Of a DNA stretch of 64,000 nucleotides, positions 11,790 to 17,564 are shown piece after piece. The stretch is from Thuidium tamariscinum. Taxonomy: Eukaryota; Streptophyta; Bryopsida; Hypnales; Thuidiaceae. The notes beneath the pieces were generated by a model. The model was not told the DNA's origin. It was given only the letters and a program-made list of their open reading frames with translations, and searched no databases. Each line of letters starts with the position of its first letter. The first letter of the stretch is position 1. The stretch covers positions 30,924,821 to 30,988,820 of the forward strand of contig OX344750.2 in the NCBI GenBank assembly GCA_947034885.2, read 5' to 3'. The position numbers were made by a program, and so were the translations under genes.

Positions 11790-14700
11790 ATGGGACTGCC
11801 TCCTCAATTGGTGTCGTGGGATTTAGATTGTAGACAACAATTGCAGTGCAGGAGAGAACAGAGAAGCTTTTTGTCGGTGTGTGGACTAGGTGGTGCGCAG
11901 GTGAGTGAATTAAGCGGTTGGATGACTTGTGACATGGGTTGGACAATTGTGGTTATGCTGACAACAAATGTGTCGAGATATGAGGTCTCGTTTACAGCAA
12001 TGTTTGATAAAGAGTTTGTCACATTTTTCCAAACGTAACCGGATATGAACATGGTTGACTGAACCCTAAACCCCGGTATTGATGGGAAGAGCGCTTTGAA
12101 TGGTACGAAGTTGCTTATTAACAGAGTGTTGACGTTTGTGTACCCAGGATATCTGTGCAATCTCAGTATTCAGGTCTCCATGGCCTATCTACCCTTCTTT
12201 ATCCCTGCCCTTGTCCTCTCACATACGAGGCAGTGGACCAATCCGGTGTTCACCATTTTCATCAGTTTGGAAGAGATCACCTTCGAATTCCAATGCTTCA
12301 GGTATGTATCATATGCCCATCGTCACAGAAATATTTTGCCTTTCCTGGTGAGAAAGTGACTGACATGGGTAAAGCATGTTGCGGTGGATTCAGGTGAACT
12401 AAAGTCGGTTGAAGAACTTTGGAAAGAGTACTTTGCGGATCCTACGCAGTGGTGGGACGACAGAGCTGACAAGGTATGACTAGATAAAAGAAAGCGGATA
12501 CAATACTCGGCTCAACAAGTGACGGACGTTTCTTGCTTGTACAAGGCCATGGGCACTTGTGGGCACTTGGTAAAGCAACAAGTATGAAATTGCGTTGTTT
12601 GCTGTCATTGAGTGGAGTGAACACTGCTCAGATCATTGCAGTGTCATCCAACAGATATTCCTGGAATATTGATTGTTAGATGCAAAATGAATATGAGACA
12701 TTTTTTTAGGATCTGATCATGGGTTGTGATGCCTACAGAGGAATCCTCGATCACCTGACTTTAGGCATAAGGTGGCAAGGAAATCACTTTGGATATATGG
12801 CTGGTCAACTCCACCATGGGTAGAGGCAATGCTCAAGTTGACAACTGAAGGGAGAATGCAACCTCCTGTTGATAATCGCTCCAAAGATTCTCAAGACACA
12901 ACACAAGGAGACAGGTAACTTTAAGAATTGAGTTGGCTACCTTGTCTAGTGACTAGAGTAGGTGCATCTAGAAATATGTGATTTTGGATGAGTTTAAGGA
13001 TTTTTGTGTGTGCAATATGTCTGTTCTTCCTTTTGGTGATTGGGTGCACTTAACGTGGAATGATTTGCAATGACTTGCGGTGTATGTGAGAGATGTTAAG
13101 AATTCAAATGGATGGATGCAAATTTGTGGATGTTAAAATATGTTAGTACTGGGCATTAGTGGTCTTGTACCCTTTCACTGTGTATCAGTGTTCTTCTTTC
13201 GAAGGGATTTCTATTGAAGAATCTATTGATGAATCAGGCCATCTAAGGGCTACAATGGAAGAGGATGCACTGTGCCTAGTACTGCAAGAGAGTCGAGGCA
13301 TACTGTACCGGGTGGTGGCGGTAGTATGTCCTTGAAAACTGCAAGAAGCACGACTGAAGCAATTGGTAATTTGAAGAATGGACTAGAACAAGGCATGGCC
13401 ATCGACTCGTTTATGTATGTTGAAGTTTTGAGACGGTGCTTGAAGGAGAAAAACCTTAATGTTAATGTCCCGAAGCAGGTTCACGACTACATCAACCAGA
13501 GTGGAATGGAGCAGAATACATATGTGGCAAACAACCTAGTGAGCGTGTATATCAGGTGTGGAGAGTTGGAGGATGCACGTGGAGTGTTTGATAAACTTGT
13601 GAAGAAGAACGTGTTCAGTTGGACCATTATGATTGAAGGTTATGCAAAGCACAATCACGCTGAAAAAGCAATGAAACTTTTCAATCAAATGTGCCAAAAA
13701 GGGATCCAGCCAACTGCATTTACTTTCTCGAGCATCCTGAAGGCATGTGCCAATCCATCAGCTTTGCAGTGGGGCAAAAAAGTTCATGCGTATGTAAGAC
13801 ATGCTGGGCTTGAATCAGATGTGCGTGTCGGCACTGCGCTTGTCCACATGTATGGAAAGTGTGGCAGTTTGGTTGATGCCCGGCTAGTTTTTGACCGGAT
13901 AGAGGATCGTGATGTGATCGCGTGGAACGTGATGATTGGTGGACTTGCAGACCATGGATGTGGGCACGAAGCATATGAACTGCTTGTCCAAATGAAACAG
14001 GAAGGCCTCGAACCCAATGCAATCACTTATTCGAGCATTCTGAATCCATGTTCAAGCGCAGGGGCTCTGGAGTGGGTGAAAGAGGTTCACAAGCATGTTC
14101 TCAAAGCGGGACTTGAGTCGGATTTACGTGTGGGCAATGCGCTTGTCCACATGTATGGAAAGTGTGGCAGTTCGGTTGATGCCCGGCTAGTGTTCGATAG
14201 GATGGAGGATCGTGATGTGATCACGTGGAACGTGATGATTGGTGGCCTTGCCGAACACGGATGTGGGCAAGAAGCATATGAACTGTTTATGCAAATGCAA
14301 AGGGAAGGCCTAGAACCCGATGCATTCACTTATGCGAGCATTCTGAATCCGCATTCAAGCGCAGGGGCTTTGGAGTGGGTGAAGGAGGTTCACAGGCATG
14401 TCCTCAAAGCGGGACTTGAGTCCGATTTGCGTGTGGGCAATGCGCTTGTCCACATGTATGGAAAGTGTGGCAGTTTGGTTGATGCTCGGCTAGTTTTTGA
14501 CCGGATGGAGGATCGTGATGTGATCACGTGGAACGTGATGATTGGTGGCCTTGCACAGCATGGGTGTGGGAGTGAAGCTTATGAACTGCTTGTCCAAATG
14601 AGACAGGAAGGCTTCGAACCCAATGCATTTACGTTTGTGAGCATTCTGAATCCATGTTCAAGCACAGGGGCTTTGGAGTGGGTGAAGGAGGTTCACAAGC

Positions 14701-17564
14701 ATGTCCTCAGAGCGGGACTTGAGTCGGATTTGCGTATGGGCAATGCGCTTGTCCACATGTATGGAAAGTGTGGCAGTTTGGTTGATGCTCGGCTAGTGTT
14801 CGATAGGATGGAGGATCGTGATGTGATCACATGGAACGTGATGATTGGTGGCCTTGCACAGCATGGGTGTGGGAGTGAAGCATATGAACTGTTTATGCAA
14901 ATGCAAAGGGAAGGCTTTAAACCCGATGCAATCACGTTTGCGAGCATTCTGAATCCATGTTCAAGCGCAGGGGCTTTGGAGTGGGTGAAGGAGGTTCACA
15001 AGCATGTCCTCAAAGCAGGACTTGAGTCGGATTTGCGTGTGGGCACTGCGCTTGTCCACATGTATGCAAATACTGGAAGTGTTGATGATGCTCGGCTAGT
15101 GTTTGATAGGATGGAGGATCGTGATGTGATCACATGGAACGTGATGATTGGTGGACTTGCACAGCATGGGTGTGGGAGTGAAGCATATGAACTGTTTATG
15201 CATATGCAAAGGGAAGGCCTCGAACCCGATGCAATCACGTTTGTGAGCATTCTGAATCCATGTTCAAGCGCAGGGGCTTTGGAGTGGGTGAAGGAGGTTC
15301 ACAGGCATGTCCTCAAAGCGGGACTTGAGTCGGATTTGCGTGTGGGCAATGCGCTTGTCCACATGTATGCTAATACTGGACGTGTTGACTGTGCCCGGCT
15401 AGTTTTTGACCGGATGGAGGATCGTGATGTGATCACGTGGAACGTGATGATTGGTGGACTTGCAGACCATGGATGTGGGCACGAAGCATATGAACTGCTT
15501 GTCCAAATGCAAAGGGAAGGCCTCGAACCCGATGCAATCACGTTTGTGAGCATTCTGAATCCATGTTCAAGCGCAGGGGCTTTGGAGTGGGTGAAAGAGG
15601 TTCACAGGCATGTCCTCAAAGCGGGACTTGAGTCGGATTTACGTGTGGGCAATGCGCTTGTCCACATGTATGGAAAGTGTGGCAGTTCGGTTGATGCCCG
15701 GCTAGTGTTCGATAGGATGGAGGATCGTGATGTGATCACGTGGAACGTGATGATTGGTGGCCTTGCCGAACACGGATGTGGGCAAGAAGCATATGAACTG
15801 TTTATGCAAATGCAAAGGGAAGGCCTAGAACCCGATGCATTCACTTATGCGAGCATTCTGAATCCATGTTCGAGCGCAGGGGCTTTGGAGTGGGTGAAGG
15901 AGGTTCACAAGCATGTCCTCAAAGCGGGACTTGAGTCCGATTTGCGTGTGGGCAATGCGCTTGTCCACATGTATGGAAAGTGTGGCAGTTTGGTTGATGC
16001 TCGGCTAGTTTTTGACCGGATGGAGGATCGTGATGTGATCACGTGGAACGTGATGATTGGTGGCCTTGCACAGCATGGGTGTGGGAGTGAAGCTTATGAA
16101 CTGCTTGTCCAAATGAGACAGGAAGGCTTCGAACCCAATGCATTTACGTTTGTGAGCATTCTAAATCCATGTTCGAGCACAGGGGCTTTGGAGTGGGTGG
16201 AGGAGGTTCACAGGCATGTCCTCAAAGCAGGACTTGAGTCGGATTTGCGTGTGGGCAATGCGCTTGTCCACATGTATGGAAAGTGTGGCAGTTTGGTTGA
16301 TGCTCGGCTAGTTTTTGACCGGATGGAGGATCGTGATGTGATCACATGGAACGTGATGATTGGTGGCCTTGCAGACCATGGGTGTGGGAGTGAAGCATAT
16401 GAACTGTTTATGCAAATGCAAAGGGAAGGCTTTAAACCCGATGCAATCACGTTTGCGAGCATTCTGAATCCATGTTCAAGCGCAGGGGCTTTGGAGTGGG
16501 TGAAGGAGGTTCACAGGCATGTCCTCAAAGCAGGACTTGAGTCGGATTTGCGTGTGGGCAATGCGCTTGTCCACATGTATGGAAAGTGTGGCAGTTTGGT
16601 TGATGCTCGGCTAGTGTTTGATAGGATGGAGGATCGTGATGTGATCACATGGAACGTGATGATTGGTGGACTTGCGGACCATGGATGTGGGCACGAAGCC
16701 CTGGAAGTGTTCAAAGATATGATTGCAGGCGGTGTGGAGCCGAATGTGATCTCCTTCGTTGCAGTCTTGTCGGCCTGTAGTCGTACTGGCCTTGTGGATG
16801 AGGGCCGCAGACTTTTTCTCGCTATGACACAAGATTATGGCATCGAACCTACTGTTGTGCTTTGTACCTGCATGGTGGATGTTCTTGGCCGAGCAGGACA
16901 CTTGGAGGAAGCAAAGCTCTTGATTGGGAACATGCCAGTGGAACCAGATGGGACAACTTGGGGAGCCTTGCTTGGTGCTTGTAGAACGTACAGTAATGTG
17001 GATTTGGGCAAACTTGCCGCTAATGAGTGTCTCAAGTTGGAACCGATGGATGCTTCTGCATACGTGCTTCTCTCGAATATCTATGCTGCAGCTGGCAAGT
17101 GGGAGGAGGTGTTGTGGGTGCGCACTATGATGCAGGAGAGAGGTATACGCAAGGAGCCAGGGCGTAGCTGGATTGAAGTTGATAATAAGGTCCATGACTT
17201 TGTCGTAGGGGATACTTCTCACTCAGAAGCGAAGGAGATCTATGCTGAGCTGAAGAGATTGAGTGAGAAAATCAAGGCCGAAGGGTACATTCCTGATACC
17301 CGGCTAGTGTTGCGGAACATTGAGGAGGAGGAGAAAGAACTTGCGCTTTGCTCCCATAGTGAGAAGTTGGCTATTGCTTACGGACTCATGCGGACACCCC
17401 CTGGAGAGCCAATTCGGGTGTTCAAGAACCTTCGAGTGTGTTCAGATTGCCATACGGCAACCAAGTTTATCTCAAAGGCGACTAAACGAGAGATTGTTGT
17501 GAGGGATGCTAATCGCTTTCACCACTTCCAAAATGGTGTGTGTTCTTGTGGTGATTATTGGTGA
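11790..17564 (+). CDS. PDF-motif plus PLS-class PPR-DYW protein, five-exon model, 1615 aa
   Basis: Model: coding exons 11790-11900, 12148-12301, 12394-12473, 12739-12914 and 13238-17564; introns are GT-AG (for example gtgagt, gtatgt, gtatga, gtaact donors) and every junction keeps frame, giving 4848 nt, 1615 codons plus TGA. Residues 1-88 are rich in Ser, Arg and Pro and may be an organellar targeting leader. Residues about 93-144 form a PDF motif: LWKEYFADPTQWWD, then NPRSPDF (PDF at 121-123), then LW and STPPWV; this motif is known from plant OSB proteins. PPR motifs follow, with ten 101-residue PLS triplets at about 357-1366, then E/E+ motifs, a PG box (PGRSWIEV near 1481) and a DYW domain with HSE (1547-1549), CSDCH (Cys 1575 and 1578) and terminal CSCGDYW. 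H, C and C are the expected zinc ligands and Glu1549 the catalytic residue of DYW cytidine deaminases, so organellar C-to-U editing is the likely role. The exon-5 ORF and domain calls are secure; exon 1 and the ATG are the weakest part. Confidence 0.85.
12394..12914 (+). other. Two exons coding for the PDF motif (exons 3 and 4 of the PPR gene)
   Basis: Exon 12394-12473 encodes GELKSVEELWKEYFADPTQW and on to ADK; it ends at AAG before gtatgac. Exon 12739-12914 begins after ctacag and continues in phase with RNPRSPDFRHK, then LWIYGWSTPPWVEAML. Together they rebuild the whole motif (LW..FF/YF..P..WWD..R....NP..PDF.HK....LW......PPWV) as in OSB proteins. The intron between is 265 bp. The second exon ends with AG before gtaact; joining to 13238 gives AGG and enters the PPR frame 34 bases before the first GTG at 13272. 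Confidence 0.8.
13785..16814 (+). repeat. Ten tandem 303-bp units coding for near-identical PLS triplets
   Basis: Units start at 13785, 14088, 14391, 14694, 14997, 15300, 15603, 15906, 16209 and 16512, always 303 bp apart. Each codes for an S motif (31 aa, core NALVHMYGKCGS), a P motif (35 aa, core VITWNVMIGGLA) and an L motif (35 aa, core SILNPCSSAGALEW). Units 2, 3, 4 match units 7, 8, 9 more closely than their neighbours, including private variants such as QEAYELF/DAFTYAS, FEPNAFTFVS/SSTGALEW and FKPDAITFAS, so a five-unit (1515-bp) block was duplicated. Unit 1 is the most diverged at the left and unit 10 merges into the conserved C-terminal PPR motifs. Confidence 0.97.

Follow-up and report, generated by a model that had tools for sequence, protein, structure and literature searches.

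Does a single gene of the moss Thuidium tamariscinum join the PDF motif of organellar single-stranded DNA (ssDNA)-binding proteins to an RNA editing factor of the PPR-DYW type? The question arises from the initial annotation of a stretch of 64,000 nucleotides (hereafter the window; C2:30924821-30988820 of an assembly with 363 Mb in 19 contigs), which read three in-frame splice junctions as fusing the two parts. Our description of the PDF motif, about 50 aa long, is taken from PMC6963530; as described there, the OSB family is organellar and the PDF motif of AtOSB1 alone suffices for ssDNA binding. The characterized Physcomitrium editing factors covered in PMC10482289 are PPR-DYW proteins. Physcomitrium patens has 10 DYW proteins (PMC9459714), and nine DYW proteins edit 13 sites there, with no non-PPR helpers identified (PMC9459714, PMC10482289). 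With nine DYW proteins, 13 sites and no identified helpers, mosses are thus a simple model of plant editing.

In the window, five coding exons between 11790 and 17564 form a single frame of 1615 aa, from the ATG at 11790 to the stop codon at 17562-17564 (Table 1). The junctions reported initially (12301/12394, 12473/12739 and 12914/13238) hold, each having GT..AG borders and being in phase, and splicing of 12394-12473, 12739-12914 and 13238-17564 gives one open frame, ELKSVEELWKEYFADPTQWWDDRADK / RNPRSPDFRHKVARKSLWIYGWSTPPWV... / RPSKGYNG...DYW (slashes mark junctions). A fourth junction, 11900/12148, absent from that annotation, links the ATG to the later exons. In the predicted protein, a short N-terminus and the PDF motif are followed by a variable tail and the linker; about 35 PPR motifs come next, and E, E+ and DYW close the chain. 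Exons 1 and 2 (exon 2 was not found in L041 and has 152 nt in L043) encode an 88-aa N-terminus that is rich in Ser and Arg and poor in acidic residues (R8 K1 D3 E1 S17), possibly an organelle transit peptide. A phase-0 intron divides the PDF motif between ..DDRADK and RNPRSPDF.., and the unspliced exon-4 frame runs immediately into a TAA inside the intron 12915-13237. In Pfam searches the last exon matched PPR repeats, E, E+ and the full length of the DYW deaminase profile; the Pfam PPR families and motif tiling agree on a P-L-S triplet array, in which we counted by hand 11 P-L-S triplets plus one L and one S motif for the window copy. HSE, CSDC and CSCGDYW are found in 16 of 16 copies printed, the first two corresponding to the HxE and CxxC deaminase motifs, which we take to be essential. 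Pfam, which has no PDF model, returned nothing for residues 1-225 with E values allowed up to 10, and an Rfam scan of the window gave 0 matches.

Table 1 Features of the window gene (positions in the window) and of the PDF-like proteins on viral contigs (positions in each locus).
Feature	Position	Strand	Remarks
Coding exon 1	11790..11900	+	37 codons, ATG start; ATG in 32/33 copies, donor GT in 32/33
Coding exon 2	12148..12301	+	154 nt in 45/46 rows where found
Coding exon 3	12394..12473	+	First half of PDF motif (..LWKEYFADPTQWWDDRADK)
Coding exon 4	12739..12914	+	Second PDF half (RNPRSPDFRHK..LWIYGWSTPPWV) and variable tail
Intron between PDF part and PPR part	12915..13237	+	GT..AG in 47/47 rows
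Coding exon 5	13238..17564	+	Linker, PPR array, E, E+, DYW, stop
Linker, PDF to PPR	13238..13325	+	In-frame stops in 0/34 copies; pN/pS 1.44
Tandem array	13809..16699	+	9.5 copies of 303 bp, that is, 101-aa P-L-S triplets
E motif	16989..17177	+	Pfam PF20431, above cut-off
E+ motif	17190..17273	+	Pfam PF20430, 25.0 bits (cut-off 24)
DYW deaminase domain	17283..17561	+	Pfam PF14432, above cut-off, complete profile 1-93, ends CSCGDYW
Phage PDF-like proteins	L072 512-1097; L073/L076; L075 4470-5118; L079 2536-3123; L080 2512-3183; L081 2461-3180		Small, motif C-terminal

Whether the PDF and PPR-DYW parts belong to one chain was judged from other copies in the same genome. We collected 47 candidate sequences, 30 from PDF exon-4 matches and 17 from DYW matches; having been picked by one of these matches, the set is uninformative on copies without both. 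Thirteen were identical to others over the compared stretch (11 of them one place fetched twice), leaving 34 distinct copies. Each of the 47 rows has an exon 3 of 80 nt and an exon 4 of 176 nt, both with AG/GT borders. Among 31 copies, the intron ahead of the PPR exon differs in length and shows every remainder modulo 3, and the spliced frames (exon 3, exon 4 and the first 363 nt of exon 5) carry stops in 0 of 34 copies. In the linker, stops occur in 0 of 34 copies in the coding frame and in 5 and 32 copies in the two alternative frames; a star-tree neutral simulation expected 3.0 stop-bearing linkers in 29 and gave zero with a probability of 0.045, which is modest. The first downstream Met, at 13326, is replaced by K, I, V or V in 4 of 29 copies and is T in L026, and the second is missing in 2 of 29 (present in 27).

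Next, selection on the parts was estimated from the 29 main-group copies of the same length (L022, L026, L041, L043 and L048 were left out). The pN/pS ratios are descriptive: pS differs between segments (0.019-0.092), and the copies share ancestry and may have undergone conversion, so that the intervals are too narrow to serve as tests. From the N-terminus onwards, the ratio was 0.51 (0.25-1.06) in exon 1, 0.84 (0.43-1.85) in exon 2, 0.22 (0.11-0.38) in the PDF motif, 3.5 (1.45-13.6) in the exon-4 tail, 1.44 (0.78-3.5) in the linker and 0.66 (0.42-1.06) in the first PPRs. The intervals of exons 1 and 2 reach 1, which leaves the transit-peptide reading without clear selection. The PDF pN of 0.020 is about one third of intron divergence (0.054-0.067). 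Corresponding ratios were 0.18 for the DYW domain and 0.31 for the E region (14 copies), and 0.38 for the central triplets (88 triplets from 15 copies). The PDF motif and the DYW domain are under purifying selection and the linker is not; two constrained ends joined by a free bridge are the pattern expected of two working parts in one chain. Within the triplets, the fifth and final positions of P and S motifs vary more than the rest (mean 0.154 versus 0.072 elsewhere; Mann-Whitney P 0.028). These RNA-code residues rank 15 to 43 among 101 positions, so we make no claim that diversifying selection targets them alone.

Together, the junctions kept in all 34 distinct copies, the stop-free linker frame, the lack of conservation of the first two downstream Mets and the selection on both PDF and DYW confirm, at the level of sequence, the PDF-PPR-DYW fusion that had been proposed. 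A pair of neighbouring genes that were duplicated jointly, one for a small PDF protein (exons 1-4) and one for a PPR-DYW protein starting at Met 13326 or later, would make use of the TAA just inside the intron after exon 4 and of the Met that the window copy and 25 of 29 copies have at 13326. We consider this arrangement very unlikely, as GT and AG are kept in all rows, the linker frame is open in 34 of 34 copies, Met 13326 is replaced in four of the 29 copies as well as in L026, and a stand-alone PPR-DYW protein would be without the N-terminus. It is also highly improbable that the PDF exons are a functionless remnant that hitchhikes with the editor: the unconstrained linker and exon-4 tail would suit a remnant, but the PDF motif itself is constrained and is still recognizable in copies such as L041.

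The fusion is real at the level of sequence, but the gene in which it was first read is not single. There are 86 DYW matches in this genome (91 of 91 candidates scored), and 68 of them are preceded, at a distance of up to 9 kb and on the same strand, by a PDF exon. These 68 loci rule out a single freak gene, and the co-occurrence of PDF and DYW at them rules out a chance motif. Two PDF queries agree on this. In the first, 150 of 200 candidates were scored, and in the second, diverged one, all 121 were; the top 68 matches of the latter (E up to 4.6e-10) all lie 5' of a DYW match. The PDF exon stands about 316-323 bp ahead of the PPR open frame in the main group and at a variable distance in other copies. 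The open frame around the DYW match has at least 734 aa at 63 of the 68 loci; at the other five it is short or broken, with 103 to 582 aa.

Of the remaining 18 DYW matches, 11 lie in frames of 830-1142 aa and seven in short frames; at 9.6 kb from one of the short ones, beyond the 9-kb limit, is a degraded PDF-like match with three stops (E 0.0075). For three of the 18 (L039, L045 and L052), a sensitive search of about 4.9 kb of 5' flank gave a best E of 0.36; the same search detected the PDF motif in L041, L043 and L048. Since PDF was undetected at 18 of 86 matches, it is not required for a DYW protein as such, and these 18 may be the ordinary moss DYW set, which numbers 10 in Physcomitrium as described in PMC9459714.

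Many DYW open frames across the genome differ in steps of 101 aa. The 303-bp P-L-S triplets are nearly unchanged and vary in number between copies, which sets them apart from the degenerate repeats of an ordinary PPR array. PDF-DYW loci are concentrated towards contig ends: of the 63 on the nine contigs whose length is known, 19 are no more than 750 kb from an end, where 2.6 would be expected. The P value for this excess assumes independent copies, which the PDF-DYW loci are not; for other DYW matches the count is 2 of 18. A single region, C4:20.1-23.1 Mb, holds 18 of the 68 loci.

A possible source of the PDF exons was found in the same genome. The SSB domain (PF00436) matches at two places, C1:35.468 Mb and C3:7.468 Mb, and a PDF exon, reading PSPKSPDFKHKTTNEALWIVSKRTPAWV, lies 803 bp further 3' of the first; we take the two as one putative OSB-like gene (C1:35467327-35468977), whose PDF exon scores 44 bits with the motif profile. 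Its PDF acceptor, for which only the 3' PDF half was read, falls at the same codon and in the same phase 0 as that of the window gene. This common intron position supports an OSB-type donor. The window protein thus resembles OSB proteins in the PDF motif and, for the OSB-like gene here, in intron codon and phase; it differs in having the PPR-DYW part and no OB-fold/SSB domain found, Pfam giving no N-terminal OB-fold match in the first 225 aa (E up to 10) or in the PPR part.

The motif is not confined to the OSB proteins named in the initial annotation: at least 42 further PDF copies lie elsewhere in the genome, and phage proteins carry a PDF-like motif. These copies, away from DYW matches (for example C9:5758427, C2:25732577 and C6:808183), are uninterrupted, though SSB domain matches occur at only two places. 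Eleven of them were read in part (L059-L069), and nearly every piece has a stop soon after the uninterrupted motif. DNA 3' of the stop looks conserved between some of these copies, and some have in-frame stops. Transposon-like open frames follow one PDF copy on its 3' side (L070; C6:808350-812900, minus strand), one of them resembling a Ulp1-type protease by eye. AlphaFold modelled the contiguous PDF copy L064, with 8 others, as helix-strand-strand-helix (mean pLDDT 85.9, pTM 0.64). This model had no match in BFVD or the PDB at E up to 0.001, and the PDF sequence had none among PDB sequences at E up to 1. Pfam gave two weak single-member matches for 11 PDF peptides (best E 0.0059), and one contiguous PDF matched phrog_726, of unknown function, in PHROGs (E 0.0016).

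Two scans of viral contigs yielded 11 PDF-like loci on 7 contigs (Table 1). The plant PDF profile scored 26.9 to 56.1 bits on the first four phage loci and reported 0 of 544 other ORFs; the motif in L080 and L081 is diverged. The neighbouring genes were scanned with Pfam on five contigs: on four of the seven contigs (L072, L073/L076, L079 and L081), the PDF-like gene stands between a gene for a PD-(D/E)XK nuclease ahead of it and one for a DnaB-type helicase after it, and the helicase was confirmed on a fifth (L080). Three PDF queries against 50,697 annotated phage records gave 0 matches, and of 44 stretches with the PDF pattern in prokaryote genomes 0 were confirmed. Common descent of the plant and phage forms is likely, with the reservation that the motif is so short.

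The gene structure and the selection on its parts allow us to propose, with moderate confidence, that one chain acts as an organellar C-to-U editor with an added single-strand-binding PDF clamp from an OSB-type exon donor. The nuclear gene, presumably transcribed, would encode a 1615-aa protein that its N-terminus probably directs to an organelle. There, the PPR array would read an RNA sequence and the DYW domain would convert a C downstream of that sequence to U. PPR arrays bind with their N-terminus towards the 5' end of the RNA. An N-terminal PDF would hence grip the single strand on the 5' side of the PPR footprint, where it could serve as a sequence-independent clamp that adds affinity or aids scanning. 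Such proteins would probably have arisen when OSB-type exons for a transit peptide and PDF were spliced onto an intron-poor PPR-DYW exon, the fusion then spreading to about 68 copies with differing numbers of triplets and differing RNA-code residues. In the PPR code, ND specifies U. As given in PMC10482289, NN specifies either pyrimidine, TD specifies G and TN specifies A. For the window copy, the code predicts from the P and S motifs a mostly pyrimidine target with two G positions, and targets may differ between copies because their code residues do.

Other functions of the same chain have to be weighed. PDF could tether the protein to organelle DNA or nucleoids, or act on ssDNA, rather than clamp RNA. 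The known PDF proteins described in PMC6963530 are organellar ssDNA-binding proteins, and the phage relatives adjoin nuclease and helicase genes; we nevertheless regard a role at DNA as rather unlikely, the remaining parts of the protein being those of RNA editing factors. The family could also serve mainly the splicing or stability of organelle RNA, as does PpPPR_43, a DYW protein needed for cox1 intron splicing according to PMC9459714, and the many copies here exceed the nine or ten DYW proteins needed in related mosses. This role seems doubtful to us, with the DYW motifs intact in 16 of 16 copies and a DYW pN/pS of 0.18, and with the DYW domain of PpPPR_43 set apart by its description as distinct in the same source (PMC9459714). 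A bolder form of the editor reading, which we put forward as a speculation that is unlikely to hold, is a new PDF-DYW editor class in which an organellar (perhaps ultimately phage) replication module was recruited to a cytidine deaminase and now evolves as in an arms race near chromosome ends; in its boldest form the class would act on selfish organellar transcripts, or on organelle ssDNA or R-loops as well as RNA.

Proteins that combine a PPR array with a nucleic-acid-related module have precedents in those with an extra RRM, SMR or NYN domain, such as PPR4 with its RRM; the ones named in PMC9459714 are P-class, whereas the window protein is a PLS-DYW protein with PDF. The PLS-class DYW factors of Physcomitrium patens have the same P-L-S triplets, E, E+ and DYW with its usual motifs, but, compared by description, differ from the proteins here, which have an N-terminal PDF, a near-unchanged 101-aa triplet and about 68 related copies. 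Restorer-of-fertility-like (RFL) PPR families resemble the PDF-DYW family in their many recent copies in clusters and their shuffled repeats; they differ in being P-class proteins that are not known to carry DYW or PDF. The literature searched gave no earlier account of a PDF-DYW protein, most subscription journals being outside its coverage, and such a protein may already be known or be present elsewhere. About 68 DYW proteins with a built-in PDF would show another single-chain way to raise editing power and would offer a new part for engineered RNA editors. They raise the question of what purpose so many near-identical editors serve, and place the little-studied PDF motif in a testable setting.

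Finally, contig C18 of the assembly carries a split cox1 (C18:3315-11056) and so is probably the mitochondrial contig; the exon borders of this cox1 fit moss intron positions.
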